Source: a virus. From it: DNA of 42,652 bases. The notes below the pieces were generated by a model. It did not search any database, was not told the DNA's origin, and saw only the letters and a program-made list of their open reading frames with translations. The DNA is taken from IMG/VR virus record IMGVR_UViG_3300032011_000026, positions 1 to 42,652 of that record; one strand, 5' to 3'. The position numbers and the translations under genes are program-made. Position 1 is the stretch's first letter; each line of letters opens with the position of its first letter. Below, one piece after another: positions 6,201 through 39,325 of this stretch.

Positions 6201-9200
6201 TACTGAAATGGAAGAACAGAAAGCCCCAGAAGGTAATGAAAATTGGAACTACGAAGTACTACCAGCACTGGACGTTGTTCGAGTGGCATGGAGGGTTGTT
6301 TGGAAAGAACTTGCAAAAAGAAAAAAATTACAAGACAAAAAAACGAACTTTAAAGGACTTAAAGCAGAAGATATTATACCTGATGGCTTTATTGAATCAC
6401 TTAGCGAAGATTACGGTCCAACTAAAGAGGCACCTACAGAAGATAAAACACAATACGGTAAACTTACACCAGAAATAGTAAAAGGATTTAACTCCGCCCA
6501 AGACGCTGTTGAATGGTTAATTGATAATACCGACAATCCATTATATAGGAGATTTGCTCAACGAATTAAAGATAGCATTCCTAATATTCCTATTAGATTT
6601 ATTGATAAAGATTACATAACCGCGGAGGATGGTAGTAGAGCAAGAGGTGTAGCAACTCGTAGATATGAAGATCTAGAAGACGGTTTATTCACCACCAGCA
6701 CAGGTATCTCCTTAGCTAGATCAGGAGTAAACGAATCAACATTACTACACGAACTTTTTCATGTAGCTGTAGCAGTTCTTTTTTCAGGACCAATAACTCT
6801 TAAACAAAAAGCCGCTAAACAACAATTACTCGATATAGCTACACATTTAAAGACTGTTATCGATTCTAACGAGATTAAGGGGATGCAGTTAAACCCGGAT
6901 CAAATAACTCTGCTAGATCTTATGAGAGGTCTAGAGGTTCCCGGAGATGAAAAAACTAAAAGCAACGCTGCAGTAGAAGAATTAATAACATATGCTTTAA
7001 CTAACCAACAAGCTAGGGCGCTGATGATGTCGCTTCCTGCTCTTGAGACTGGATACAAGTCTTTATGGTCAGAATTTGTAATAGCTATTCGCAAATTAAT
7101 GGGAATGGAAGATACCGAAAAGTATCCTCCGACACTATTTGATCAGATAGTCGAAAGCACAGATATACTAATAGAAAAGCCTGAAGCCAAGAAAACTAAA
7201 CAAAAACCAATTAGCAGACATTTACCTAAGGAATCCCAAAGTAAACAGGCATTCTATGTTTTATACCCGGAAATTCTTACAAAAGATGGGATCTTAGCAG
7301 AGGATAGTGTACTAGCTAAGCATTTTGAAATATTAGAATCATTAGCTACTGCATTAGGATTAAAATCCCCTGCTTTTGCGTGGAATAAAGATAAACAATC
7401 CTACTCCTATGAGAGAAAAGATATTGAGGCGGCTTTAAAAGCATTACCAGACAATAAAGATTTTTTAGAAGCAAAAATTGAGACTAGACAACTTGAAACT
7501 ACTATTACTGAAGAACAATTAAAGAAAGCTAAAACAAAACAACATGCAAGTATAGGTAAGAAAAGCGAAAAAAGCATAGCTGAACGAATAGCTGAAAACC
7601 TAGAAAATGTCTTTGGCATTTTAGGCGTATACGTTAATAAGTTAATTACTATTCGTAAGATACGAGATAAAAAAGCTCTCAATGGTATTCATACTCTCCC
7701 AGATGCTGTATTTGAGGATACTCATGCGTTTAGCGGTCTTCCAATTACAGATGCATCAGGTAAAAAACAATATAAAACTTTAGAAAGAGCTCTTATCGCT
7801 TTAGGTGTATCAGAAGAAGGTGCTGCTGAACTAGTAGAAGAATATTCAAGATATGCTAGAAAGTACGAAGCTATACGTGTAGACGGTAGAGTTTTAGATA
7901 CAGAAGGTAATCCACAAGGCAATACCGCTATTAATAAGCCGTTATCTATACTTTATAGTGAAGATCAAAATGTAACAGAATTCCCGCCTCAAATAATATT
8001 TGGAATGATGTTAGGTACCGTTACTTGGCTTCAACAAAATCCAACTAATATTAGATTTAAAAGTGATCTTGGTAGAGAAATATTTTTGTATGGAGATCAT
8101 GCTCAGCTCTCTCCTAGTGAACGAGGCCAAGTGAAGAATGTCGGGCATTCTTACACGGAAGCGGTGTCTACTGTTGGTAATAATATTATCAGTATTTTAA
8201 AGATATCAGGAAAAGATCTGGATACGGATGTTTACTATAATAATTTAAGTATAGCTTTAGGACAGCTAGCCTTGCAGGTAGAACATGGACCTCAAGAACT
8301 CACTCTTACAGACAAAACCTCGTATACACAACCAACTGTAGAATTTGAAGGAGACGAATCTAGACTTCATATAGAAGGTAAATTATGGAACTTTAAGCCT
8401 GCCAAGAAAGAAGGGCGTATTTTTAATAACGCCGATAAGAAACCGTATAAACATATTAAACTTAACCTTAAAAAAACTAGTGATGGAAAAGAAACTCCTC
8501 TTAAACTTCCTAAAGCAACTGTTGATGCTAGTAAAGAGATATTAGCAGTTATAGACGCGGATGTAGATACAGAAGGAGGTAAGCCAGCTCAAAAACCATT
8601 TCCTAAGGTTGTTGACAATATAAAGAATTCTTTAGGTGGAGTAGCTAATGAAATTAAAGATGTACTTAGTGTCCTCCAGGGAAACGATGAAAAACAACAT
8701 GTTTCATGGACGGGGACACAGTCTTTAGATATAGCAGTTAAATTAGATGAAGCAGGCGAAAAAGACGCACTTTATAAGCTTGCTGGAGTAGAGCATGTCG
8801 ATGATACTTATCATATTGTACGCCGAGAATCTATTGAAGCCTCTAATGCAGACAAAACTAACGCAATTGATGGTCTTCTAGATGCATACAATCACGAAGA
8901 CGGCAATCTACTAAAGAAGTTTTATTTTAGATATAAGCTGCAAATTCAAAACCGCATTATGATGCAGTCTTCTGGAACTATTAATCCACAAGCCAGTGGA
9001 GTTGATAGATACTATGTAAGACCTACAAAAGCTTCTGTTAAATATACCGAAAAAGATCTATGGAAATTCAAGTTATCCGTTGTCGGTAACTTTGGGTTTG
9101 AAATAGATAAAAATGACCTGACATCTGCTTTAGATGCCTTTGATTATTTAATAGCCGATGGAGATGTTTTAGAAGCTGTAAGCGCAATACAAAATATAGA

Positions 9201-12200
9201 TGAAGCAGGTCAACCAGCTAAATTAGCAAAGCTTTTATTAATTATTAAAAATAAAGAAGTCCTAGGCGAAGCGGATCACCCGTCGTCCATATTGAATGGA
9301 TTAACAGGATTAGCTCAAGGACTAACAGTAGGTAGTAATGTTACAGAAGCCGGAGAATCAGTCAAAGCAACCAAACTGGGAATACTAAAAACGGACTTTG
9401 AATCAGATGTAGTTTTAGAAATTGATGGTATATCTAGTGGATTTGCTCAAAACGCTCTTCAGTTTCCTATGTATGGGAAAGAAGGAAACGAATTACGGCG
9501 GAATCAAACAGGTACATATATTGGTCCTACAGAATCATCTACTACTCATGATCCATACAAACAAGATATTTATCAGGATGTCGGAACTAAAGTTGAGGAA
9601 TACTCTGGAGTTGATACGGCTGAATCCTTTCATCTTGGTCAAAAGAACAAAAAACCTTTTAATCGTGATCAGTATATAGCTAGAAATAATTCATTAAATG
9701 AATTGTATCCTACGCTTAAAAATGGGGATATGCGTAAACTTATTAAATACCCATTTCTTATTTTTATGTATGGTGGCGGGCCTAAGAGCATCTCTGAAGG
9801 TATTGCAGGAGATATACTATCTGAATTGTATGTACAGCTAGATTTACATCAAAGACGCTACCACAAACTTAAAACTCAAAAAGCTAAGAATGCTTATCTA
9901 AAAGAAAAGGTATTACCATTTCTGGAACATTTAAGAGTAGTAGGAGCTATTGATAACGTCGCAATATTTAGAGGGGCATTTGTAAACCCGAAAAAAGTAA
10001 AAGAAGAGCTACTTAAGGATGCAGTAGCCATTTCTCGAATATCTATTTTATTACGCCCAAGATTACAACTAGGACTGGAAAGTATTCTATTAGGTACAAA
10101 AGACGCTAGAGATGCGGCAATACAAGCAGGAGAGGTGTTACATGCTGTGTTCATGGCTCATTTCGAAAAGGCTCAAGAAGAAGCACTGATTATTCGTAAT
10201 GAAAACGGAGAAGATACTGGGCAGAGAAGACCAAATTTAACTGAAAAAGAGATTAACGAACTTATTAGAAAAGAACTAATTAGTCTATTACCTCAATACA
10301 AGGGACCTTTACAGCAAACGGATCAGTCTTTTATAGATCTGACTAAACGACAATCCTCCGAATCTGATAGTACCAGTGAAATGGTCACTATTGAGTATAA
10401 GGATCCTAAAAATAAAAGAGGAATAGGCACAGCTAGTACTACGCCGAAGCGTATGACTTTTACGTCTCCTGGCGTTAGCGCACTAATTCGTATGATCATC
10501 AATATGGATGCGGCTATATTGACTAAAACTTTAGCAGCTCACCCACATGTACTCATGCTTCATGACGCTGTAATGGGGGATCCTAATACATTAGAAGCAG
10601 CCAATACTACATATGGCAAGTGGTACGTAAAGCTTAACAGAGAATATAGTGTACTAGATTCTATTACAAAACGAATGAACGCTGTTATTGCTAAAACAGA
10701 AGCCAAGGACATAGAGAACGGTAATAATAATCTAATGGAGGCTGTAGATAGCTGGCTAATAGATAAAGCATTCATAAATCAATATGCAAAATCAAGCGAT
10801 ATAAAATCTAGAGAAGTTATTGTTCAACGTATTAATGATGTAAATAAAACCGTCCAAATAGAACGAAAAAAAGTAGAGGAGGAAATCTCTGAACGAGGAG
10901 GGAGAGTTATTTCTAGTCAATTATATATGGCTAGAAAACCTATCTTTGAAGCTACGCAAATAATCTTAGATAAAGAAAAAAATCTCCGATTAAAAATATC
11001 TAATTTAGTAGATTTAGTTTTTAAAGATGTTCCTAAAGACGTTCGAAATACGCCTTCAGAATTTGAAAAAGAAGAGCAGGCTATTAGTGAAGCATTTAGG
11101 AAAGAGATTAAAAAAGCTAAAAAAGGTAAAGGACTTTTTTATTCTTCATTACCTGACCAAAAAAGAGATAATCCTATAACAAAGTTAGTAGGAGATATCA
11201 CAAAAGAGAATATATTATCTACTTTTGCAGATATGCAAGAGCATTCCGAGAATTACTATGAAAATGATCAGGATCAAACTAGACATGCAGAAACATTACT
11301 AAGAGTACTTACTAAATTAGCTGATGGGTTGAAAGATTCCTCAGCTATTCGATTTACTCAAGAAGAGATAGACGGAATTACTCAAGGAGAATTTGATCCG
11401 GTCAGTAAGAGAGTAAGAGTATCTTTAAGTAGACAGGGTCCTTTATCTACGAATGCACAGTCTCCTCAGGAAGTATATGTGCATGAACTCGTACACGCCA
11501 TAGTTACTGTTGCATTAGATAAAAATCCTTTGTTAAGACGTAGAATAGAAAAACTATACCGACAGACTAAACAGGATTTAGCTGCTAATGACGGATACAA
11601 GATATTTTTAAATGATCCTAAGAGCAAAGACGAACAAGCAAAGAGGACTGCAAAGGAACAGTACGAATTTTTATTTACCAATCCAAAGAACGAGAAACAC
11701 AAGTTAGGTGAATTTTTAGCTTACGCTGTAACAAACAGACAACTTGTAAATTATCTATCCGGTACTAAAACTAAAATACACTACAAGTACAGAAAAGAAG
11801 AGACTCTCTTTACTAGAGCAATAGATGTATTCGAGTATTTTGTAGAACTTGCTGTAGATACTGTACTAAGAGCGTTCAATAAAAGAGGAGGTTTTGGTGC
11901 TAAAGCTAATCATGAAATGTTGGCAGTTCTCGAGGCATTAATAAATATCCAAAGTAACAATAGAAATAGACTAGAGCGGTTGCAAGATAAGCTATACAAA
12001 AATTTAGGTGATTCTGATCAATTTTTAAGAAAATTTGGTGATGAACAGGCATTAGCAATAATAGAGAGTGAACCAGCTGGTTTCCTTAAGCGCGTAGGTA
12101 GAGTTGCTGTAGGTGCCGGTTATCTTGCTATTAGTAAAAACGCCCAGACTCTGAAGACTAGGCAAATAGTATATAACGCCATGGGTGATACTTTACGCCA

Positions 12201-14646
12201 TTTAGCATTAGAGGTAGGTGAAGGAATACTTGGCAAACGACTAATCCAACAATTATTGTTCTCTAAAGTAAACGTATCTAAAGCACGTCAAGAGGCCGAA
12301 AGGTTTACTATTAAATGGTTTAACGGGATCTGGAAGTCAGTAGATGCTAGCAAACCTAAAGGAATGTCTGTAGATTTAAGAGAAAATCTAACTAATGTAA
12401 TATTTAGAACTGATTTATCCAGTCTATTAAACATGGGTCTTTCTCATGCAGAGATAGCTAGTTTTATAGGTGACAGGAGCAAAATTGATGCAAGATTAAA
12501 ATACCTTGAAAAACAAATATTAAATAAAAGACCTGCTAAGAGAAAGTACATTAACCACGCGGTGGATTATGCTAAAGAGCTTGGTGAATACATGGCTAGT
12601 GGAGATGTTGGTTTAGAAGTGGCTCATATGAATGCATTCACCATCGCAAGAAAATATTTAGCTAAACCAGAAGCCGGTGATCTGGCACTAATAGAAGCAT
12701 ACGCTACATTAACAGCCTTAAAAGCGACCAGATACGATGAAACTGCTGCTGTTAAGGAACTTGTTGATGCAGAATTTGCTGTGGATGCTACGCAGAATGG
12801 GTTTATAGATTTATTAGATAGCCATATTGAATTTGTTGACCGATCAAGAAAAGGAAATTTTGGCGGTAATCCTACACAAATGGTTAAGGGCTATATCGTA
12901 GAGAGGATAGATAACCTAACGGATATGAAAGTAGGGCTGGAGACTCAACGAAAAGATATGGAAAACGAGGGCTACCCAGAGATGTATGGATTAGGAGACA
13001 TTCCAGGACTTAAACCTGGTCAAAGAATAAACGACAAAATATTTATCGGACGAAATGCGCCTCCTATTCCTTATGTTTCTGCCATTATGTCTACGACCAA
13101 TAAACGTAATATCGGTACTACTTTAACAGAGATTTTATCAGAGAGTCCTAATTACCAAAAATCTCCTGGCGTACCTGATATGGCAAAAATAAAACAAGCG
13201 ATTCGTGATATTCATAAAGAACAGGAAAAATTGGCTTCTCGACGTAAATTAAAATTCAATAACGAATTACGATTACGCCCTGTTCTAGATGAGAAAGAAA
13301 ATGTTACTGATTATCGAGTAATCATGAACCACGTAACTCGGAAACAGTTATTAAATCCAGATTTAGAAATACAAAATGTATTCGCACATATGCAATCATC
13401 TTATATTGATCGCGTAGCTACTATTAAGAATGATAAAAGAACCATCGAGCTATTAGTATACGAACAAAAAGAAAGGCTACCATCTCACCGTGATGAGTTC
13501 ATCGATTTCTTAGACCCTGCAAATGGATTTATTGATCGTTATTACAGGCTACCTAAAGAAGTTAGAATGTATATGGATAGATTTACTAAAGACGGTAAAT
13601 TTATGGTTAGGAAAGACGCCGTTAATAAAATATTTGGGTACCAAGCAAGAGACTTGAGAAATATACCTGGGCTTAACCATCCTAGTATGGTTCATATAAA
13701 AAGGTTTGCAGGACTATTTCACTATATTCTCAGACAAATTATTGGCTATGGAAAGGATCGTATAGTCATAGCTATGCCGCAGGTATGGTTATACAACGCA
13801 TATTCTAACATAGCACAGTTAATGATGAGGAACATTCCTCTACCTTATATAATTCATAAGACTATTGAGGGATTTCATGAATACCAAGCATATCGTAACG
13901 ATACAGAAGAACGTAGAGAGCTTAAAAATACTATTAATATTAAAAATTTAGATAAAAAAAATAGTCCAGAAGCTATACAAGTAGCAGCATTAACAGTACG
14001 TATAGAGGGTAACAAGATTCATGCTATGAGTGCTGCAGGGTTGAATTCGCTTATTGTGGAGGATCTGAATGATGCTTCATTGGATGGATATATCAATCGT
14101 GGACGGAGATATTTGAAAACAAACAAGTGGTATAATGCGTCAGATAGGTTATCTACTACAGGGCATTCTGTAGCGGCTAATATTTTTATGACTAGAAGTA
14201 CAGGACCCTATCAGGTTATGCGTCAGATCGTGCAAATGACGGACTTCTTGGGTAGGTATGTGATGATGCAGCATGCTATGGAAATACGTGGGCTAGATTT
14301 TAATACAGCTATGCATGAAGCATTAGACGCATTTGTATTATTTGATGAAGCATTAGCTCCTGCTTTAGAGTCTTTAGAATCTCTTGGTGCTACTGTATTT
14401 TTATCGTACTTTTTACGTAATCAAAGATCAGCACGTCAAGTAGCTATGAGAAATCCTACTGGAGTAGCTATATCTGGAGCATTTCAATATTCGACCGGTA
14501 TACCAACATTAGGAAATTTAGACAGTGCATTTATAGCTGGGGATATAATGCCTACTACGATGTATTTAGATGAGCTATTTGACGAGGCTAATAACCCAAC
14601 AGGAGCAGATCTGCTAAACCAGGCATTAGGGGACATATTTAGTTAG
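220..14646 (+). CDS. Giant N4-like virion RNA polymerase with AlkB, zincin and other accessory domains
   Basis: A 4808-residue protein; N4 vRNAP is about 3500. T7-family polymerase motifs are visible. A probable motif T has R2912 followed by INPQ. Motif A is DGISSG with D3069. Motif B is R3172-x3-K3176-x7-Y3184-G. Motif C is HDA with D3449. The gaps D to K (107) and Y to D (265) are close to those of N4 vRNAP (111 and 273) and unlike T7. Upstream are a lysine/glutamate-rich coiled region (to about 1200), HEKSH (1271-1275, possible third ligand E1303), an FGDN...GIPTK domain (from about 1350), an AlkB-type dioxygenase (about 1700-1910: H1827-A-D1829, H1889 or H1891, RISMTFR at 1900-1906) and HELFH (2177-2181). 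After the polymerase come HELVH (3755-3759) and a C-terminal part of about 900 residues, probably for packaging as in N4. Expected to be injected with DNA and to transcribe early genes from hairpin promoters. The accessory activities are inferred from motifs only. Its stop shares four bases with the convergent minus-strand gene. Confidence 0.93.
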   Translation: MGSIADDVAAAKASFSPNLASAKQDAAITIAEAKSSLLQESVPSPLSQHLQRQRFSDIAIKARKEFLESLPDPKRVIKTENNIQFLADGTFNLISATGEILRNISKKELPDLLRIEEGRLKDLEKQERLGMKATPLTGLGAVGVDVTGKIIGGAAEIGSDITQIGTPAQTLTEEVDRYNQSFAHERSKATISESMRLDKEPPPNLISKEELAKYQKVKKAMREDAPLSAADTEYVNTSEKFNTIAGLESKVHRSSKTYDKIEEISKDIQSHIPTKHADDIAVSLAYKRVAKEEGIPAALWRTLTQDWQHLVQQGFESIPYMIAFTAGGPITQAGVLYTLAVSKAREITTTFMKEHDRDPDTNERMRIEFFAGASTVAEKFGDMAAVRAIPFAKFGRATGILKQITDTSSDAVKKAISKTSFTSKVGKGLGNTALALGGEGVSGGLTATFDQLAAAGKITDPAQIGFDALAEAVGTVGGLGGMVAGKALYNTAKLPFTPSREERRIQEELAYLDKAIASEKPIKVKDTGQGQPIQDEIDTLNEGLENIKDPEQRKIKLEQIRQNLSKAGKDDSEAEAILEEYIAGDTKRRDELTAALEKVLPKEVFEKRKAAILAEQKERQESKAKKKLLKTKEGKEARIAEIDKEIEAVRAKEGFIDAEAIRKLEEEKQGLTEGLDSFATKIKRTFVGDVDPRFEDPQEPVDDRTYTPLEDAEFNKLVKSIDVEKLTDPATDPAELDEALNKIAEIHKYKELTDSQDQILSKIKDELAEVDPRFKEGPLTSIKGVVNATEEQLKKQLRIAKKNKKTEDIKLINAELKRKVKQAELKKIENQKTMGEVHSQVVDGPGTRWKGIHTYYDEIVKTVAEIKDKVIAEDAVINIIQRMSTHVGNLKRKQEAFTAAYNKPTLKKGIRVVRGTAGEGRVMKYTEEVMSVKAFRAARKKNEYVTAIFKEKKKGFGYTSEGLIKKVGLEVEYGNEFLTVVEGFRETSFSRAAAELDARRKALKEKQAKAAKVRFKLKKALILNKKTQDSLDALFKTKSNKELQKYIIEKREEIKQLKNISEKAQEEAVLAYAVLAFNARTPEKKKKKEKESKPKPGTAFSNEKVWPIKRLKKSIATLQGQIDKATNPKAIWQKNIDSMTAELERRGVDVKGEASITKKLLLEAKKTFDAFTGIIEELNNKKVGVIDSDKTQALAQASSTSLNPTIVLNIKAIVEDFQNDMAYLDGKGEGIHANTSRQKAEVFKNVDVPAFKKFIRDNGGIAAYINFIYQHEKSHIINKDGAKYPKKKDGTTDIMHADSIAIERSANAYAFEKIGFKAAETTKSESKTRFGKVTYWKGKWTVKDIQKNSNKIFIFGDNLLKKGKLGQAIIRELMNAFGIPTKKAPSTTTDSYFTDDELEDNKLYINAAFLKIETGKDIFLPQAGLGTGLAKLAEKAPETLKYIQSILSYMEENSELPPYVERKAKLEVIQNYAKRMITEFIPKTAREKHLKKELLKAKVATQFIGAGKQHSSTDVYREIYDRIGLANTGEYTSKDTIFIASNGNRYGRVIPVGTNGKLRGVYTNVDLAIEAGATIIMDTAGHLADSNYNVGEMELAEYLKKKEYVRQGKTGVWKKQPAKGEQGTKTLTEADIKILREHKWQPFDPGPDEVPTALFSDAEIESYIKDPSQIQRDITSLTPLASLEPDWEKRRLQKIKNDTLAVDIDKANAKIDVLKSLSVMKEEKTPPTEVEHYKGSSKELVFSTIKELIEGLSKSSAKKAKWISTWFGPIAYEYSGGNEIINHPAQEMPEKFAKIARGLEGKLGYPEGYFNSALMNVFPKEVGIGKHADDEEIYGADDQEQTIGAVATVSLGGTSAVKITSNDGKKQWNLKIEDGDVYIMPGGNFQRKHKHQVGKSSSPRISMTFRHVPKNRITEQQDPIEHPDAKVLNAAKNVTLGNVLELLKSLTHKLKDSDERIHVSDEYKKAYENVLIKFTTLVEKKVEKESNASLMFGITEMEEQKAPEGNENWNYEVLPALDVVRVAWRVVWKELAKRKKLQDKKTNFKGLKAEDIIPDGFIESLSEDYGPTKEAPTEDKTQYGKLTPEIVKGFNSAQDAVEWLIDNTDNPLYRRFAQRIKDSIPNIPIRFIDKDYITAEDGSRARGVATRRYEDLEDGLFTTSTGISLARSGVNESTLLHELFHVAVAVLFSGPITLKQKAAKQQLLDIATHLKTVIDSNEIKGMQLNPDQITLLDLMRGLEVPGDEKTKSNAAVEELITYALTNQQARALMMSLPALETGYKSLWSEFVIAIRKLMGMEDTEKYPPTLFDQIVESTDILIEKPEAKKTKQKPISRHLPKESQSKQAFYVLYPEILTKDGILAEDSVLAKHFEILESLATALGLKSPAFAWNKDKQSYSYERKDIEAALKALPDNKDFLEAKIETRQLETTITEEQLKKAKTKQHASIGKKSEKSIAERIAENLENVFGILGVYVNKLITIRKIRDKKALNGIHTLPDAVFEDTHAFSGLPITDASGKKQYKTLERALIALGVSEEGAAELVEEYSRYARKYEAIRVDGRVLDTEGNPQGNTAINKPLSILYSEDQNVTEFPPQIIFGMMLGTVTWLQQNPTNIRFKSDLGREIFLYGDHAQLSPSERGQVKNVGHSYTEAVSTVGNNIISILKISGKDLDTDVYYNNLSIALGQLALQVEHGPQELTLTDKTSYTQPTVEFEGDESRLHIEGKLWNFKPAKKEGRIFNNADKKPYKHIKLNLKKTSDGKETPLKLPKATVDASKEILAVIDADVDTEGGKPAQKPFPKVVDNIKNSLGGVANEIKDVLSVLQGNDEKQHVSWTGTQSLDIAVKLDEAGEKDALYKLAGVEHVDDTYHIVRRESIEASNADKTNAIDGLLDAYNHEDGNLLKKFYFRYKLQIQNRIMMQSSGTINPQASGVDRYYVRPTKASVKYTEKDLWKFKLSVVGNFGFEIDKNDLTSALDAFDYLIADGDVLEAVSAIQNIDEAGQPAKLAKLLLIIKNKEVLGEADHPSSILNGLTGLAQGLTVGSNVTEAGESVKATKLGILKTDFESDVVLEIDGISSGFAQNALQFPMYGKEGNELRRNQTGTYIGPTESSTTHDPYKQDIYQDVGTKVEEYSGVDTAESFHLGQKNKKPFNRDQYIARNNSLNELYPTLKNGDMRKLIKYPFLIFMYGGGPKSISEGIAGDILSELYVQLDLHQRRYHKLKTQKAKNAYLKEKVLPFLEHLRVVGAIDNVAIFRGAFVNPKKVKEELLKDAVAISRISILLRPRLQLGLESILLGTKDARDAAIQAGEVLHAVFMAHFEKAQEEALIIRNENGEDTGQRRPNLTEKEINELIRKELISLLPQYKGPLQQTDQSFIDLTKRQSSESDSTSEMVTIEYKDPKNKRGIGTASTTPKRMTFTSPGVSALIRMIINMDAAILTKTLAAHPHVLMLHDAVMGDPNTLEAANTTYGKWYVKLNREYSVLDSITKRMNAVIAKTEAKDIENGNNNLMEAVDSWLIDKAFINQYAKSSDIKSREVIVQRINDVNKTVQIERKKVEEEISERGGRVISSQLYMARKPIFEATQIILDKEKNLRLKISNLVDLVFKDVPKDVRNTPSEFEKEEQAISEAFRKEIKKAKKGKGLFYSSLPDQKRDNPITKLVGDITKENILSTFADMQEHSENYYENDQDQTRHAETLLRVLTKLADGLKDSSAIRFTQEEIDGITQGEFDPVSKRVRVSLSRQGPLSTNAQSPQEVYVHELVHAIVTVALDKNPLLRRRIEKLYRQTKQDLAANDGYKIFLNDPKSKDEQAKRTAKEQYEFLFTNPKNEKHKLGEFLAYAVTNRQLVNYLSGTKTKIHYKYRKEETLFTRAIDVFEYFVELAVDTVLRAFNKRGGFGAKANHEMLAVLEALINIQSNNRNRLERLQDKLYKNLGDSDQFLRKFGDEQALAIIESEPAGFLKRVGRVAVGAGYLAISKNAQTLKTRQIVYNAMGDTLRHLALEVGEGILGKRLIQQLLFSKVNVSKARQEAERFTIKWFNGIWKSVDASKPKGMSVDLRENLTNVIFRTDLSSLLNMGLSHAEIASFIGDRSKIDARLKYLEKQILNKRPAKRKYINHAVDYAKELGEYMASGDVGLEVAHMNAFTIARKYLAKPEAGDLALIEAYATLTALKATRYDETAAVKELVDAEFAVDATQNGFIDLLDSHIEFVDRSRKGNFGGNPTQMVKGYIVERIDNLTDMKVGLETQRKDMENEGYPEMYGLGDIPGLKPGQRINDKIFIGRNAPPIPYVSAIMSTTNKRNIGTTLTEILSESPNYQKSPGVPDMAKIKQAIRDIHKEQEKLASRRKLKFNNELRLRPVLDEKENVTDYRVIMNHVTRKQLLNPDLEIQNVFAHMQSSYIDRVATIKNDKRTIELLVYEQKERLPSHRDEFIDFLDPANGFIDRYYRLPKEVRMYMDRFTKDGKFMVRKDAVNKIFGYQARDLRNIPGLNHPSMVHIKRFAGLFHYILRQIIGYGKDRIVIAMPQVWLYNAYSNIAQLMMRNIPLPYIIHKTIEGFHEYQAYRNDTEERRELKNTINIKNLDKKNSPEAIQVAALTVRIEGNKIHAMSAAGLNSLIVEDLNDASLDGYINRGRRYLKTNKWYNASDRLSTTGHSVAANIFMTRSTGPYQVMRQIVQMTDFLGRYVMMQHAMEIRGLDFNTAMHEALDAFVLFDEALAPALESLESLGATVFLSYFLRNQRSARQVAMRNPTGVAISGAFQYSTGIPTLGNLDSAFIAGDIMPTTMYLDELFDEANNPTGADLLNQALGDIFS

Positions 14647-32110: not shown

Positions 32111-33856
32111 TTATGACAACATATAACTGCTGTTCTTAATATCACAATTTAAGTCATCACTGAATTTAGTTAACACTAAAGTGTTGTTTCCAGTAATTTG
32201 TCGTAATATATCCTGAAGAATATCACTTTTGGCTATTTCAGCCATAATTCTCCTATAAGTCGATGTCACTTTTGATAAGTGATTAGGATTAAACACGAAA
32301 CAATCATGAACATGACTTAGTTGGAAATCACAACGTCTAATCATTTCTCTAGCCACATAGCCATCAATTGAATGAATAACATTAGGACAAAGAGACCTAT
32401 AATTGTCAGATTTAGTCTGATGGAGCCACCTCAAAGGAATATCCCCTAATTCTGGATCTGAGTATACGCCGTTAGTACCCTCTACAACGGGTATATACAC
32501 CGTATGATTATCAGGCATTACCCACGTATGGTGATCAGCATTAGGATTCCAACACTTGTTAATAACATCCATTACGTCTTCTGCTCCTGGGAGCAATCCA
32601 GTAATGACATTGTAAAATACACCTAGCTCTATTTGTGAAAGTAAAGCTTTCGGCGTAGCTCTAGAATTATAAAAATGAGTCATAACAACCTCCTTAACTA
32701 TCTTTCTAGATATAGGCTTAGGCAACTGCGCGTTCATTAAATCAGCTATTTCCGTATACAAATCGTATCTAATAGCTGGATCCATCATATTAACAAATCT
32801 AGCAGTTTTCTTACACCCAGATACAGCTGCCATTACCTGAATGCCTGAGGACGTCGCATCTAGACTCATTACATACCCTGTAGGTTTACATTCTTCTGTA
32901 TCTTTCAGGGCTCTAACGGCTTTACGTCCAAGAATAGGCTCATCCCAGATAACATCATCGAAATTTTCTCGATTAGCCCAGTCATAACGTTCTTTCCAAG
33001 TCAGTTTATTCTTACCTGCATGATTAGCTATCGCTATACGTAGGTTTGGAAGTCCTTGGCAAGTAATTAATTCTTTATTATGCAATGATAACAAAGCTTT
33101 ACCGTATTCATTACTCTGAAGATTTAAATCATAACCGGAAGAATAACTTCTTCCTCTAGAATCATATCTCCAGACAAAATGAAACGGTATACCGATATAC
33201 TCACCAATAACCCTTAAAAACTTCTTTTTATTCATAGCTCTATTTGTATCTCTTTCGAGTTTAAAGGTAATGGGATCTATCTCCCATGGAATAGACTGAA
33301 GTTTATTAACAACATCATAGGCTAAAGGCTTATCATGTTTAGTAAATCTACTGCCAAGTACTAGATGTTTGGTTTCAAATAACCATCCTCCACCATGATT
33401 ATTAGTCCATGGTACGGGTAGTGTTTTCATAGGAGGTAAATACTGTAACTTGGCTAGTTTTCTTTTGGTTCTTTTGTCCAATTGAAAACTAGGATGTACA
33501 TACCACTCACCATCTATTGTTAAGAAAGTGTATATGCCAACATCTTTACACTCTTTAACCAATAGAATTCCCCATTCGAATGCTCGTGCGGAGTTTTCAA
33601 TACCTGCAATATGCCCTAACTGCGTAGCAATAGCTTGGATAGGTTTAGCAACCTTATCCTTAAGAAGGATAGAAAACATTTTAATGTAAATTTCTTTATT
33701 AGATTTCTTGCCCCTGTTAAGGTCTGTAATGGTTTCTAATATATTTAGTTCCATTTGGAACGGAAGCTGTCCCTGAATTGCTTCTAATACAATTTCATCT
33801 GTAATTCTCGTAGACCATGAAGTTTCCAGAGCATATTGCTCTATCGTTGTATTCAT
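32111..33856 (-). CDS. Single-subunit T7-type RNA polymerase in one ORF (RNAPII equivalent)
   Basis: 581 residues against 883 in T7. Motifs: D232-x2-G-R236 (YDSRGRSY), motif A LDATSSGI (D333), motif B R384-x3-K388-x7-Y396 (Asn follows Y instead of Gly), PNVIHSIDG (about 491-499) and motif C HVHDCF (D518). All catalytic parts are present in one chain, whereas N4 splits this enzyme into RNAP1 and RNAP2. It probably transcribes middle genes. The N-terminal region is much shorter than in T7, so it may need a helper to melt DNA, as N4 RNAPII needs gp2; no such gene is recognised here. A terminator lies only 28 bases before its ATG. Confidence 0.92.
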   Translation of the reverse strand: MNTTIEQYALETSWSTRITDEIVLEAIQGQLPFQMELNILETITDLNRGKKSNKEIYIKMFSILLKDKVAKPIQAIATQLGHIAGIENSARAFEWGILLVKECKDVGIYTFLTIDGEWYVHPSFQLDKRTKRKLAKLQYLPPMKTLPVPWTNNHGGGWLFETKHLVLGSRFTKHDKPLAYDVVNKLQSIPWEIDPITFKLERDTNRAMNKKKFLRVIGEYIGIPFHFVWRYDSRGRSYSSGYDLNLQSNEYGKALLSLHNKELITCQGLPNLRIAIANHAGKNKLTWKERYDWANRENFDDVIWDEPILGRKAVRALKDTEECKPTGYVMSLDATSSGIQVMAAVSGCKKTARFVNMMDPAIRYDLYTEIADLMNAQLPKPISRKIVKEVVMTHFYNSRATPKALLSQIELGVFYNVITGLLPGAEDVMDVINKCWNPNADHHTWVMPDNHTVYIPVVEGTNGVYSDPELGDIPLRWLHQTKSDNYRSLCPNVIHSIDGYVAREMIRRCDFQLSHVHDCFVFNPNHLSKVTSTYRRIMAEIAKSDILQDILRQITGNNTLVLTKFSDDLNCDIKNSSYMLS

Positions 33857-35519: not shown

Positions 35520-35933
35520 TTACTCAGACCACGAATCTATTAGCTCATCCGCACTAATAGCACGAACAATAGGTTCAGTCTTCCAAGCTTCGAGGAGCAT
35601 ATCCCCGTGCTCTTCAAGCCAGAGTTCAACTCTCTTATCTCCAGCTGTTACGAAACCATTAAATTTGATCTCGCCGTCATAAGACTTGTTCTTCTTAGGA
35701 TCAGTCTTCTTCATAACCTTCAAAGAACGACCTTCACCTTCTGTATCTGCCAAATACATCGCAGGACTATTCCCGAGAGATTTAACAGACTTTTCAGTAA
35801 TCTTGGGATTACCCGCAAGATACTCCGCTACCTCAAAATAACAACCCGTAGAACCGATCAAATATCGTTCTTTAGGGGTCTTCTTTTCAGGCGTTTCTTC
35901 TACAACAGGCTCTTTATTGTCCAATAAAGGCAT
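35520..35933 (-). CDS. Early protein with a MYLxDTEG motif (paralogue A)
   Basis: 137 residues. The N-terminus is charged and probably disordered (EPVVEETPEKKTPKER). The body shares NSPAMYLADTEGEGRSLKVM (about residues 53-72), then a FNGFVTAGDK strand and a DMLLEAWK helix, with the protein at 36292-36702, so the two are paralogues. It has its own hairpin promoter 72 bases upstream, the site TAGGAGGTGCAAT, and a terminator, forming a single-gene unit. Function unknown; early position suggests host takeover. Confidence 0.75.
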   Translation of the reverse strand: MPLLDNKEPVVEETPEKKTPKERYLIGSTGCYFEVAEYLAGNPKITEKSVKSLGNSPAMYLADTEGEGRSLKVMKKTDPKKNKSYDGEIKFNGFVTAGDKRVELWLEEHGDMLLEAWKTEPIVRAISADELIDSWSE

Positions 35934-36001: not shown

Positions 36002-36021
36002 CCCCGTAAGGGCTTCAGCCC
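36002..36021 (-). promoter_or_regulatory. Candidate vRNAP hairpin promoter Pe
   Basis: The template (plus) strand reads CCCC-GTAA-GGGC-TTCA-GCCC. The hairpin GGGC/GCCC is followed toward the gene by four bases and then CC, so a transcript would start with GG at 36005, 72 bases before the ATG at 35933. Confidence 0.65.
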
Positions 36022-36065
36022 GTTCTGTAGTTTATCTTTCTACCCTCTATTTAATGATTTAAACG

Positions 36066-36188
36066 TGATTGCTTGCAATCATCACCTTTATCTTTTACTC
36101 CAATGCTTTAAATCGATAGCAATGGTCATGCCTTGCGCCTCTTCTTTATGCAAGGACATGCCATTGCGATAAATGCGTAAGCATTTAT
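36066..36188 (-). other. Gene-free stretch with three successive hairpins
   Basis: The gap from 35934 to 36291 has no gene. Besides the promoter it holds TGATTGC/GCAATCA (36066-36081), a long imperfect hairpin GCAATGG...CCATTGC with inner CATG and CTTGC/GCAAG parts (36119-36167), and ATAAATGC-GTAA-GCATTTAT (36169-36188). In minus-strand RNA they would be in the tail of the 36292-36702 transcript or part of a small RNA. A further hairpin GTGCC-TCC-GGCAC is at 36227-36239. Confidence 0.5.
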
Positions 36189-36255
36189 TCTATGCTTTAT
36201 TTTTTTAATATAAATAGTCAAGCGCAGTGCCTCCGGCACGAGCTTGTATACCTTT

Positions 36256-36284
36256 AAAAAACGAACAAGGGCACGAATGTGCCC
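36256..36284 (-). terminator. Terminator hairpin with ATTC loop
   Basis: Minus strand GGGCAC-ATTC-GTGCCC, then TTGTTCGTTTTTT. It follows the stop of the 136-residue gene by eight bases. The loop and the flanking GCCA are the same as in the terminator at 38591-38625, while one stem pair differs compatibly. Confidence 0.7.
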
Positions 36285-36291
36285 TGGCTCT

Positions 36292-36702
36292 TTAATATTT
36301 AAACGTTTGAGTTATAAGATCTTTACCTTCTATTCTTGTGTATTTAAACGAAACGCCGTCTTTAACAGACGCGAGAACGTCTTTAGCGTGTTCATCTACG
36401 GTTAATTTTATAGAATAGTCGTCATAAGAAACAAAACCTCTAAAGAATATGTCATCACCGTCTCGCTCCATTACTTTAATACTACGTCCTTCGGTATCGC
36501 TAAGATACATATCAGGACTATTAAATATTTCTATAATACGTTCAGGAGTAATTGGCTCCCTTTTGACTGCGTGTTGTAACACGCCGTTTTCATTAATCAC
36601 TTTGACTGGTTTCCCGTCTTTATCTTTCACTAGTATTGCGTAGTGATCATGATTAGCGATGAATTCATAGTCAGAAGTGCCTAACTGATAATATTTACGC
36701 AT
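36292..36702 (-). CDS. Early protein with a MYLxDTEG motif (paralogue B)
   Basis: 136 residues, paralogous to the protein at 35520-35933: both start with a YxxGxxxYxF segment, share NSPDMYLSDTEGRSIKVM (about residues 67-84) and a following FRGFVS strand, and end in an EHAKDVL-type helix. It differs in its N-terminal 60 residues. Start has AAAGGATAGCT before ATG. Followed by a terminator. Function unknown. Confidence 0.75.
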   Translation of the reverse strand: MRKYYQLGTSDYEFIANHDHYAILVKDKDGKPVKVINENGVLQHAVKREPITPERIIEIFNSPDMYLSDTEGRSIKVMERDGDDIFFRGFVSYDDYSIKLTVDEHAKDVLASVKDGVSFKYTRIEGKDLITQTFKY

Positions 36703-36727
36703 AGCTATCCTTTCTTAAGAAAATAGG

Positions 36728-37003
36728 TTAATGATTATCTGCGTCATAATCGATCCAATCACCTCTAGCTTGTTCTTTTGTTAAACCACCTCCTGTGTTA
36801 AGTAATTCCCATAGGTTAGCATTCTTACGCTTAAGATCTGCTATTTCTAGCTTTAGCTTCTTGTTAGATTCAACAAACACGTTTCTTAAACGTCTTGCTG
36901 ATCTTAGCTGAGCTTCAAGATCAGCTTTAGCAGTAATTAATGCTTCTGTAGCTTTAATTAATTCTGCTTCTTGATTTTTAACGTTTAATCTCATTTCAGG
37001 CAC
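36728..37003 (-). CDS. Coiled-coil early protein
   Basis: 91 residues from GTG 37003, chosen because ATGGAGGAGATATT precedes it at normal spacing. Residues about 10-65 form a heptad-rich helix (LIKATEALITAKADLEAQL, then KLKLEIADLKRKNANL). The gene follows hairpin promoter Pd and a leader with a strong terminator-like hairpin, so it may be attenuated. No family recognised. Confidence 0.7.
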   Translation of the reverse strand: MPEMRLNVKNQEAELIKATEALITAKADLEAQLRSARRLRNVFVESNKKLKLEIADLKRKNANLWELLNTGGGLTKEQARGDWIDYDADNH

Positions 37004-37030
37004 AATATCTCCTCCATGTTTATGATTAAT

Positions 37031-37099
37031 AAAAAGAGGTTGGCGCGCGTTCTTATCGTTCGGTTCCTTTACGAGGAACTGTGCGCGCTTAACCCAACC
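37031..37099 (-). terminator. Strong leader terminator or attenuator
   Basis: Minus strand: GGTTGG and GCGCGC pair with GCGCGC and CCAACC around an inner GTTCCT/AGGAAC hairpin, followed by TCTTTTTATT. It begins three bases after the predicted start of promoter Pd and ends before the ribosome-binding site of the gene at 37003. It may also end transcripts of the DUF4326 gene. Confidence 0.75.
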
Positions 37100-37118
37100 T
37101 CCTTTAGAGCTTCAGCTC
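37099..37118 (-). promoter_or_regulatory. Candidate vRNAP hairpin promoter Pd (variant stem)
   Basis: Template strand reads TCC-TTTA-GAGC-TTCA-GCTC. The second stem pair is A-T rather than G-C, a compensated change that keeps the hairpin. Predicted start GG at 37102. Confidence 0.65.
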
Positions 37119-37125
37119 CTTTTTA

Positions 37126-37440
37126 TTAAGTTAATTGTTGGCAATACATGCATTCACATGCGTCTGTATGATCAATAAGTGAAGTCATATCAGCATACTT
37201 CTTTAGCACGTCACCATGGCATGCCTTCGGTTTACAAAAGCATCCTAATCGTTTATCTTTTAATTCATGTAGATCTTGCATAAGTTCTTTATTATTAACT
37301 AAGTACTCTTCAAACTTAGCAATGTTCTCTTCCCGCGTACCTTTACTAAATGGGTTACCCCATTTACCACTCTGTTTCTTACCACTGCGCCCAATATAAA
37401 CGTCATAAGGTTTCTTATATAGATTAACAACAGTAGTCAT
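37126..37440 (-). CDS. DUF4326 family protein
   Basis: 104 residues. Matches the DUF4326 pattern: VVNLYKKPYDVYIGRSGKK, then KWGNPFSKG, then an ELKDKRLGCFCKPKACHGDV segment, where the Cys/His residues could bind metal or a nucleotide. This family is widespread in phages and its biochemical role is, as far as I know, undetermined. Hairpin promoter Pc lies 34 bases upstream; the start has GGATATAGCT before ATG. Confidence 0.85.
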   Translation of the reverse strand: MTTVVNLYKKPYDVYIGRSGKKQSGKWGNPFSKGTREENIAKFEEYLVNNKELMQDLHELKDKRLGCFCKPKACHGDVLKKYADMTSLIDHTDACECMYCQQLT

Positions 37441-37470
37441 AGCTATATCCTTTCTTTGCAGTTAATAAAG

Positions 37471-37490
37471 CTCCTAAGGGGCTTCAGCCC
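37471..37490 (-). promoter_or_regulatory. Candidate vRNAP hairpin promoter Pc
   Basis: Template strand reads CTCC-TAAG-GGGC-TTCA-GCCC; the stem can extend by two more pairs. Predicted start GG at 37474, 34 bases before the DUF4326 ATG. Confidence 0.7.
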
Positions 37491-37503
37491 CTAGGCGCTC
37501 CTT

Positions 37504-37701
37504 TCATTTAGAGCAGTTGTTGTAGAGTTCACACAACTTGCCGTATGGATAGTTGTTAGCCATTTCCCATGCATTAACATAGTTGGCTAACATGAACATA
37601 CCAATAACTGTTAAGACAAAGAGCGTAGTACCTCCAATTGCACTGATTAAACGGACGTATTTGCAATAACTGGCGTATCTTTCTGCGGTATTCTTAGTCA
37701 T
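37504..37701 (-). CDS. Small membrane protein, unknown function
   Basis: 65 residues with a single membrane segment (about 18-40, LISAIGGTTLFVLTVIGMFM), a basic N-terminus and a C-terminal part with two Cys (KLCELYNNC) that would be periplasmic if the positive-inside rule holds. It overlaps the upstream gene by eight bases. No family recognised. Confidence 0.7.
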   Translation of the reverse strand: MTKNTAERYASYCKYVRLISAIGGTTLFVLTVIGMFMLANYVNAWEMANNYPYGKLCELYNNCSK

Positions 37702-37990
37702 TATCTTCCCTTTCTAAGACTGGTGGTGGCCAGTCTCCATGATGTTTGTAGTATCTAAATATTTTAGTTAATTTATGGCACTTTCTAATGTAATCCTGTG
37801 CCCGTGTAACGTAGTCATTATGACGTTTCATTTCTCCTGTTAATTTTTCTGACATAGCAAGAATTCCTTCGTGAACCATATCTATACAGAAATCAGGAGA
37901 ACGTTCTTGATTAGGTAAATCTCTGTAGACAGATTCAAGAAGACACTCTAAATTCCCAGTTAATGGTTTGCTGTATTCTTTTAAGATCAT
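37694..37990 (-). CDS. Early protein of unknown function
   Basis: 98 residues, mainly helical, with a basic middle (DYIRKCHKLTKIFRYYKHHG, about 66-85) and an acidic end. The ATG is preceded by AAGGAGATAGCT, the clearest example of the recurring start context. No separate hairpin promoter precedes it; a terminator does. No family recognised. Confidence 0.7.
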   Translation of the reverse strand: MILKEYSKPLTGNLECLLESVYRDLPNQERSPDFCIDMVHEGILAMSEKLTGEMKRHNDYVTRAQDYIRKCHKLTKIFRYYKHHGDWPPPVLEREDND

Positions 37991-38018
37991 AGCTATCTCC
38001 TTATCTATGGTTAATTAA

Positions 38019-38051
38019 ATACCTACACGACCTAAAGGCCGTGTAGGTATA
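38019..38051 (-). terminator. Hairpin, probable terminator
   Basis: Minus strand ATACCTACACG pairs with CGTGTAGGTAT around an inner CC/GG pair and a short loop; ATTTAATTAA follows. The T run is weak, so termination efficiency is uncertain. It follows the stop at 38055. Confidence 0.65.
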
Positions 38052-38054
38052 GGA

Positions 38055-38429
38055 TTAGAACTCGATGTAATCACCCAAGATGTGACGCTCCCCAGTTATT
38101 TGCGCATACTTAGGTTGCTTCGCCATATGATCAGCCATGAGCTTGGCGTGATCCTCCTTACCTCCCTCATACAGGAATGCATCGCGCTCTGCATTAAGGT
38201 CACACCCCACGGACAACCATTCCCCGTGAGCATCAGACTCAGCACAAATCTCACACTCCACTCGAAGAAGCTCGAGTTGTTGGGTTAGGGGTTTACTCAA
38301 CAACTCAAGATCCTGACCGCAGGGCTCTCGGTCGTTAAGTGCACAACGATCAGCTCGCTTGTGCAAGTTGATCAAAGCCCTGAGTACATCTTCTTCTGTA
38401 ACTGGTTTAGGTGCGTATTGATCACTCAT
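38055..38429 (-). CDS. Early protein of unknown function
   Basis: 124 residues, helical and rich in Glu, Asp and Leu. The middle has CEICAESDAH (about 60-69), which with C44 could form a metal site. Codon choice is more GC-rich than neighbouring genes, which may indicate a separate origin. Promoter Pb lies 38 bases upstream and TTAAGGAGACTATCT precedes the ATG. No family recognised. Confidence 0.7.
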   Translation of the reverse strand: MSDQYAPKPVTEEDVLRALINLHKRADRCALNDREPCGQDLELLSKPLTQQLELLRVECEICAESDAHGEWLSVGCDLNAERDAFLYEGGKEDHAKLMADHMAKQPKYAQITGERHILGDYIEF

Positions 38430-38463
38430 AGATAGTCTCCTTAAGGAAGAGTTATGGGATTAT

Positions 38464-38483
38464 TCCCTTATGGGCTTCAGCCC
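38464..38483 (-). promoter_or_regulatory. Candidate vRNAP hairpin promoter Pb
   Basis: Template strand reads CCC-TTAT-GGGC-TTCA-GCCC. Predicted start GG at 38467, 38 bases before the ATG at 38429. Confidence 0.7.
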
Positions 38484-38590
38484 ATTAGGATCCTTAGTAT
38501 GGTTAAGTATGAATAGAAGTAGGTTTAGGGGTAAGGAATGAAAAGGATAAATCTTTCTTTAGCTATCTTACAGTGTATTATCTTGTGTGT

Positions 38591-38625
38591 AAAAAAGAAG
38601 GGGAAGCGAGGGCGCGAATGCGCCC
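38591..38625 (-). terminator. Terminator hairpin with ATTC loop
   Basis: Minus strand GGGCGC-ATTC-GCGCCC, then a T-rich tail ending TTCTTTTTTAC. It follows the stop of the 86-residue gene by 15 bases. Between it and promoter Pb (38484-38590) I see no gene or other element. Confidence 0.7.
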
Positions 38626-38639
38626 TGGCCCCCGAGAGG

Positions 38640-38900
38640 TTAGCTGTTGAGGAGAGATTGTCGAGGACGGTAGATGTAGGAATGCTCGTCCTTGGTAAAC
38701 TTATGCCCTTTAAGTTCCTTAGCGATAGCACGACGGTCGAGGACGTGCTGGACACGTTGACCTTCGCCAGCGACGCCGAGTTCGTCGCGAGCGATGTCGA
38801 CGATCTCTTCAGTACCTTCCGATGACTTGACGACTAATCGTACGATAGACTGTAGAGCGAGGTTGATACCGTGAAACATGTAACCCATTGTTTTAAACAT
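38640..38900 (-). CDS. First leftward early protein, unknown function
   Basis: 86 residues: a hydrophobic/helical N-terminus (MGYMFHGINLALQSIVRLVV), then a charged helical part (EEIVDIARDELG) and a basic C-terminal half ending HSYIYRPRQSLLNS. GC-richer than its surroundings. It is the gene nearest the divergent control region, 33 bases from the start of promoter Pa, with AAGGAGTTCTGCCA before the ATG, so it should be among the first proteins made. No family recognised. Confidence 0.75.
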   Translation of the reverse strand: MFKTMGYMFHGINLALQSIVRLVVKSSEGTEEIVDIARDELGVAGEGQRVQHVLDRRAIAKELKGHKFTKDEHSYIYRPRQSLLNS

Positions 38901-38929
38901 TGGCAGAACTCCTTATAAGGTTAATAATA

Positions 38930-38949
38930 TGCCTTTAGGGCTTCAGCCC
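38930..38949 (-). promoter_or_regulatory. Candidate vRNAP hairpin promoter Pa
   Basis: Template strand reads GCC-TTTA-GGGC-TTCA-GCCC. Predicted start GG at 38933, 33 bases before the ATG at 38900. It is the most upstream of the five leftward copies. Confidence 0.7.
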
Positions 38950-38974
38950 TGTGTAAAGATCGTTTTTGAATTTA

Positions 38975-39006
38975 GGGGGCGGGGGTAGTTGAGCACTACC
39001 GCCCCC
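38975..39006. other. GC-rich hairpin in the divergent control region
   Basis: GGGGGCGG and TAGT pair with ACTA and CCGCCCCC, with three extra G residues bulged on one side. No T run follows on either strand. It lies between the leftward and rightward promoters. The remaining sequence from 39007 to 39115 is AT-rich with a TTAATATATTATATTAA palindrome and no gene. Confidence 0.6.
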
Positions 39007-39115
39007 AAGTAGTAAGTAATGCACTCGTACCTAAAAATAAAAAATTGCCAATGGCTTTAAGACCATCTTGTAGGCTAGCCCTGCTCTTAATATATTATAT
39101 TAATATAAGGACGAC

Positions 39116-39135
39116 GGACTGAAGCCCCGTAGGGG
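39116..39135 (+). promoter_or_regulatory. Candidate rightward vRNAP hairpin promoter Pf
   Basis: The sense strand reads GGAC-TGAA-GCCC-CGTA-GGGG. This is the same element in the opposite direction, with one stem mismatch. Predicted start GG at 39132, giving a leader of about 195 bases before the first rightward gene. An alternative hairpin, GCCCC-GTA-GGGGC inside GGACT/AGTCC, overlaps it. Confidence 0.5.
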
Positions 39136-39205
39136 CGAGAAGTCCGGCGGACGCTTCTTATTCTTATAGGGGAGTTAGACCTTTAGATATAAGTAGTTAC
39201 AAATA

Positions 39206-39263
39206 GTTTAATCTCTAATGTGAGATTAAACAGGGGTGTTAAATCTCTAATGTGAGATTAAAC
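39206..39263. promoter_or_regulatory. Two tandem operator-like inverted repeats
   Basis: Two copies, 39206-39231 and 39238-39263, of GTTTAATCTC-TAATGT-GAGATTAAAC; the second differs only near its left end (GTTAAATCTC). Centres are 32 bp apart, about three helical turns. They lie in the leader of the rightward operon, in front of two winged-helix genes, and look like sites for a dimeric DNA-binding protein. As RNA they would form two 9-10 bp hairpins. Confidence 0.7.
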
Positions 39264-39325
39264 TGAAGTTAAGTGTTGCATTATGTCGTTTTTGAGGTAG
39301 TATTACTTTAAGTTTAGTTAACTAA

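Follow-up and report, generated by a model that had tools for sequence, protein, structure and literature searches.

Detailed knowledge of structure-dependent DNA promoters has so far come only from phage N4. Its hairpin promoters have a three-base loop with a purine at −11, lie before early genes, are read by the virion RNA polymerase (vRNAP) and set the start some 10 nt away from that loop (PMC4496689). Early promoters with 3-nt loops have been assigned by sequence inspection in LIT1, LUZ7 and PEV2 and in CB1-like phages (PMC3715699, PMC6027278), and DNA loops of the d(GNA) type, closed by a C-G pair, are known to be stable (PMC5815330). Here we analysed a 42,652-nt stretch of DNA from an N4-type marine phage (IMG/VR record IMGVR_UViG_3300032011_000026, positions 1 to 42,652), referred to below as the window, which carries five hairpins with TTCA loops ahead of its early genes. 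We conclude, with a probability of about 0.88, that the five hairpins, all on the + strand, act as vRNAP promoters of the N4 type, putatively read by the vRNAP encoded in the same genome.

Hairpins upstream of the early genes

Scanning the + strand between 36.0 and 39.0 kb gave GGGCTTCAGCCC four times without change and once in a compensated form, GAGCTTCAGCTC. The perfect hairpins are GGGC-TTCA-GCCC (36010-36021, 37479-37490, 38472-38483 and 38938-38949) and GAGC-TTCA-GCTC (37107-37118), and none occurs elsewhere in the window. A preliminary description had placed them a few bases upstream, on the CC or its flank; the exchange of a G-C for an A-T stem pair that it saw in one copy (37099, here 37107) is real. 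CC is separated from the hairpin by exactly four bases in all five copies, as had also been described, and lies exactly 8 nt 5′ of the loop, with a spacer that varies (GTAA, TTTA, TAAG, TTAT and TTTA). With up to three mismatches allowed, CC-N4-GGGCTTCAGCCC had nine matches in the window, which are partly the same sites counted on the opposite strand, versus 0.62 ± 0.78 in dinucleotide shuffles, and none of 100 shuffles reached nine.

The genes of the early block run leftward, so the + strand is their template. Every hairpin is therefore on the template strand just ahead of an early gene, as is characteristic of N4 vRNAP promoters. Hairpin 1 (CC-TTTA-GGGC-TTCA-GCCC, 38932-38949; 5 bp including the next A-T pair) precedes the gene at 38640-38900, and hairpin 2 (CC-TTAT-GGGC-TTCA-GCCC, 38466-38483) the gene at 38055-38429. 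Hairpin 3 (CC-TAAG-GGGC-TTCA-GCCC, 37473-37490), with a 6-bp stem, precedes a DUF4326/NrdA.1-like gene at 37126-37440. Hairpin 4 (CC-TTTA-GAGC-TTCA-GCTC, 37101-37118) has the compensated stem and is followed by the gene at 36728-37003, and hairpin 5 (CC-GTAA-GGGC-TTCA-GCCC, 36004-36021) by that at 35520-35933. From hairpin 5 to hairpin 1 the distances to the genes, and hence the predicted leaders, are 71, 98, 33, 37 and 32 nt, in agreement with the 33-99 bases reported earlier. All five copies read ...GC-TTCA-GC..., and so have both the C:G closing pair and the G at −8.

The five genes served by the hairpins, identified as open reading frames and by family searches, all lie on the − strand between 35520 and 38900, interspersed with others at 36292-36702, 37504-37701 and 37694-37990 (− strand). 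The products of 35520-35933 and 36292-36702 are paralogues (36% identity over 85 amino acids), and neither has a PHROG match. The leader following the promoter at 37101 immediately forms a long hairpin and then UUUUU (37020-37102, − strand; z = −3.3), which is either a short structured RNA or a terminator of the preceding gene. An Rfam search of the early region gave only chance-level matches, and sigma-70-like sites there were not in excess over chance.

Conservation and loop type in relatives

The preliminary description had proposed a search of related genomes. We used 80 IMG/VR loci related by terminase, from which 58 early regions remained after removal of near-duplicates. In most relatives tested the element was found before early genes. 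Its layout and its strand with respect to the genes were the same, its stems were compensated, and the loop type had changed at two or more promoters of a genome. Among GNA, GNNA or TNNA hairpins of the 58 early regions, a CC at exactly 8 nt from the loop accompanied 33 of 99 on the template strand versus 4 of 93 on the other (Fisher p ~1e-7, with some dependence among related phages). Hairpins with other loops showed no strand bias. The hairpin and CC selection applied to the covariation sites described next played no part in measuring the strand bias and the narrow range of loops.

For covariation we aligned 33 tetraloop sites from 11 genomes without gaps. Three features were invariant in all 33: a C ten bases 5′ of the loop, the C:G pair that closes it, and the A at its end. 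CC was present in 31, and the G at −8 varied. The four inner stem pairs were formed in every row, with 62 cells compensatory on both sides. The covariation score was 0.722, where shuffles gave 0.141 and slid partners 0.242 at most, on sites that were picked as hairpins, so that pairing is partly built in, and for most of which CC was also a search criterion. Since the N4 start is about 10 nt from the loop, the invariant C would be +1. The two sites without CC (CG and CT) lose the other base, which also favours the invariant C as the start.

The relatives share the CC-N8-loop layout, and each genome tends towards a single loop type. TTCA loops were found in the window, L003 and L047, and alignment showed that hairpin 1 is kept in both relatives with an altered spacer. 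Loops were TTTA in L062, L064, L039, L071 and G003, GCAA in L060, GTAA in L067, GTCA in L070, GATA or GGTA in G001, and A(C/T)CA in G002. Triloops were GTA in L052, L032 and L014, GGA in L053, L055 and G017 (also in L007 and L041, with a T-A or T.G closing pair), and AAG in L013 and L034. L055 mixes GGA with GTA and G001 mixes GATA with GGTA, indicating that inner loop bases are partly tolerated. The preliminary description had taken the tetraloop hairpins for a distinct promoter class. They are a tetraloop variant but not a separate kind, since sister phages carry N4-like GGA and GTA triloops at the same CC-loop offset as the window. A collection-wide scan for CC-N4-GGGCTTCAGCCC gave single, apparently chance matches in other contigs; among the matches listed, only the L047 contig had several.

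The loop type also differs between near-identical phages, for which two promoters were compared in each of two pairs whose terminases are identical or nearly so. In the pair L070 and L071 the terminases are identical, and the DNA is almost the same from the late genes to the first promoter; the leader and gene start after the second promoter are identical. At both promoters the loop is GTCA in L070 and TTTA in L071, with the inner stem bases CGC/GCG unchanged. L060 (GCAA) and L062 (TTTA) show the same pattern. If a single trans-acting reader changed, separate sites should change in a coordinated way; this reader is presumably vRNAP, whose gene lies beyond the ends of the compared contigs. The switched pairs also differ in some early genes lying between the two promoters, so a further contribution comes from early gene cassettes exchanged along with their promoters. 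Tentatively, and at somewhat less than even odds, we suggest that in this clade polymerase and hairpins form a fast-changing lock and key, with the loop type switching at all early promoters together, from triloop to tetraloop or from one tetraloop to another, and that each virion's polymerase would then read no genome but its own, so that co-infecting relatives would be orthogonal or exclude one another.

Short repeated palindromes beside early genes, genome-specific and switched jointly in near-identical phages, recall immunity operators, and the hairpins could be sites for a phage repressor or regulator whose types switch as in heteroimmunity. We consider this very unlikely. A duplex operator gives no reason for a C or CC fixed 8 nt from an asymmetric loop, on a single strand relative to the genes. 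It would be expected to keep its sequence rather than its pairing, whereas here the closing pair and the loop A are invariant and the stem bases vary freely but are compensated. Nor does it explain why sister phages have triloops like those of N4 at this offset.

Less likely still, the hairpins would be RNA elements or intrinsic terminators of the upstream gene. They are G+C-rich and intergenic, one site was called terminator-like on the − strand, and a T run follows the 37107 copy on the + strand. However, four of the five sites were not called on the transcribed strand, the one call has a weak tail, and separate terminator-like hairpins exist. The fixed CC beyond a variable spacer is left unexplained, and the element is upstream of the predicted start, hence outside its own transcript.

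Polymerases and neighbouring structures

The window encodes a giant vRNAP of 4808 amino acids (220-14646, + strand), which matches PHROG 2206, virion RNA polymerase (E=5.7e-180). A profile built from the mini-vRNAP regions of N4 and seven other isolates located the catalytic core at about residues 2590-3560 (E=3.2e-50; window about 7786-11007). The core retains the catalytic Asp, the Arg, Lys and Tyr of motif B and the HD motif, and the protein contains EIDGISSG, a form of the ExDGxxxG motif by which N4 vRNAPs are recognised (PMC10654107), as expected of a Schitoviridae giant vRNAP. In a fold comparison, which used a weak AlphaFold model (mean pLDDT 61, pTM 0.38), the five best PDB matches were N4 mini-vRNAP-promoter complexes (E=4.6e-10), followed by T7 RNA polymerase. 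A phmmer search of the core against PDB sequences gave no match. At 4808 amino acids the protein exceeds the 2842-3820 of reference N4-like phages (PMC10654107), and in relatives the open frame reaches 5963. An AlkB-like 2OG-Fe(II) oxygenase domain (residues 1768-1906) and DUF7831 (1337-1445) precede the polymerase core.

Schitoviridae have three RNA polymerase genes, RNAP1, RNAP2 and vRNAP (PMC7650795). In the window the heterodimeric N4 RNAPII (RNAP1 plus RNAP2) is apparently a single chain of 581 amino acids (32111-33856, − strand), so that RNAP1 and RNAP2 are fused in one open reading frame rather than separate. Its residues 3-212 match an RNAP1-type PHROG and 268-512 the RNAP2 type, and ort11 RNAP1 and RNAP2 align to the respective halves. 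Both activities appear to be present in this predicted fusion. The window is a linear record of 42.7 kb; related long contigs are 73.5-75.5 kb and Schitoviridae genomes 59-80 kb. A megablast search with 25 kb of the window against phage isolates gave no match. That the genome also encodes this RNAPII-like enzyme might suggest that the hairpins are its promoters, a possibility of similarly slight probability to that of terminators, because the N4 hairpin promoters before early genes are read by vRNAP (PMC4496689), and in relatives one site directly precedes the RNAPII gene itself, as N4 P3 precedes RNAP1.

Reading by the co-encoded vRNAP, as the preliminary description proposed, is the best explanation of the family, with direct recognition predicted from sequence. 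Negative supercoiling, produced by host gyrase as in N4, would extrude the short inverted repeat. In N4 the hairpin-dependent transcription by vRNAP needs both gyrase and SSB. The template-strand hairpin, with its 4-6 bp stem, C:G closing pair and TTCA loop, would be bound by vRNAP injected with the genome. The polymerase would then begin RNA at the C or CC about 10 nt from the loop, giving short leaders into each early gene. The tetraloop here and the other loops in relatives suggest that each phage has a loop type that probably fits its own polymerase and may co-evolve with it, changing at several promoters together.

Some observations weigh against reading the hairpins as vRNAP promoters. 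All five TTCA loops depart from the three-base loop of N4 and lack the central purine at −11 that N4 requires. The N4 contact residues K114, R119, W129, D901 and R904 are unmatched in the window's clade, in a part of the alignment that is unsure; several isolates that use GNA loops likewise lack them. Residues of vRNAP could not be linked to loop type, as too few contigs carry both. Lastly, no hairpin family was detected in the long early regions of the relatives L011, L015, L018/L023, L029, L050 and G037, so either parts of the clade do not follow the hairpin rule or the search was too strict. Nor did G004/G008, G014, G037 and G040 yield convincing promoters when searched.

The preliminary description had counted a sixth, reversed copy at 39116, which we do not retain. 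This imperfect element (CC-TACG-GGGC-TTCA-GTCC, 39116-39133, − strand; hairpin 39116-39127) has a G.T mismatch in its stem GGGC-TTCA-GTCC, and the DNA prefers the fold GCCCC-TAC-GGGGC. When the locus was aligned with L047 and L003, the outer arms covaried (GGACT/AGTCC to GGGCT/AGCCC) around an inner GCCCC-GWA-GGGGC hairpin. These covarying arms support a different, larger conserved structure at 39110-39160, of which the 39116 element is probably a part; it is not counted as a promoter. The structure is a conserved cluster of nested inverted repeats separating the early from the late gene block, with an arm that covaries in L047. A GGACGCTTCTTATTC-like tail of the cluster recurs in L060/L062 and G002. 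It is perhaps a terminator or genome-end signal. At 39206-39265 there is a tandem pair of near-identical palindromes, GTTTAATCTC-TAATGT-GAGATTAAAC, conserved in L047; L060/L062 have a different palindrome, AATGTGGTATACCACATT, in its place. These palindromes are operator- or promoter-like, and seem to switch type as well.

Comparison with N4 and other phages

The same hairpin scan applied to N4 found P1 (GAA loop), P2 and P3 (both GGA), and in all three CC lies at 9 nt from the loop. Across 12 isolates from different genera, GNA triloops having at least 5 bp of stem and CC at 8-11 nt numbered 28 on the template strand versus 1 on the other, and G/T-NN-A tetraloops 3 versus 3. In Escherichia phage Pollock a homologue of the 37126-37440 product (55% identity) sits downstream of a GAA-loop hairpin. 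The notion that isolates lack tetraloops was weakened by candidates before early genes in two Rhizobium phages: GTAA hairpins at 126 and 3577 in RHph_Y2_6 (L459), and sites at 3047 (GTAA) and 3711 in RHph_X2_28B (L262). These tetraloop hairpins (GTAA, and one TTCA) are 26-61 nt ahead of the genes. Tetraloops may thus extend beyond the window's clade, and the two phages are cultured candidates for tests of tetraloop promoters.

This clade combines many naturally occurring loop types with a fixed ruler. It offers a series for studying the reading of a DNA loop by a single-subunit polymerase, the way in which a polymerase-promoter pair shifts specificity yet stays functional, and the reason for its fast change among near-identical phages. 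Orthogonal transcription systems on single-stranded templates are a possible use. A C, about 10 nt and a C:G-closed loop ending in A may serve as a rule by which to locate the early promoters of N4-like phages that are uncultured. We found no description of tetraloop vRNAP promoters or of loop-type switching in open-licence papers.

The hairpins of LIT1, LUZ7, PEV2 and the CB1-like phages also lie before early genes of vRNAP-bearing phages; neither tetraloops nor loop-type switching has been described for them (PMC3715699, PMC6027278). Like the stable d(GNA) loops, which sister phages use, the tetraloop sites have a C:G closing pair and a terminal loop A in 33 of 33 cases. TTCA and TTTA differ in having no initial G, which makes the cross-loop G.A contact impossible; a T-A contact might take its place. 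With N4 P1-P3 the window shares a template-strand hairpin before early genes, the C:G closing pair, the terminal loop A, a putative start C about 10 nt from the loop, a variable spacer and an N4-type vRNAP in the same genome. It differs in its four-base TTCA loop, in place of GGA or GAA, in the missing −11 purine, in its 4-6 bp stem, and in having five early-block copies rather than three. The offset earlier equated with that of N4 P2 is the same measured from the base of the stem (4 nt, taking the stem as 4 bp); from the loop, CC is at 8 nt, versus 9 nt in N4 P1-P3. By this comparison the element would work like an N4 promoter, on a continuum with those of N4, yet outside their strict loop definition.

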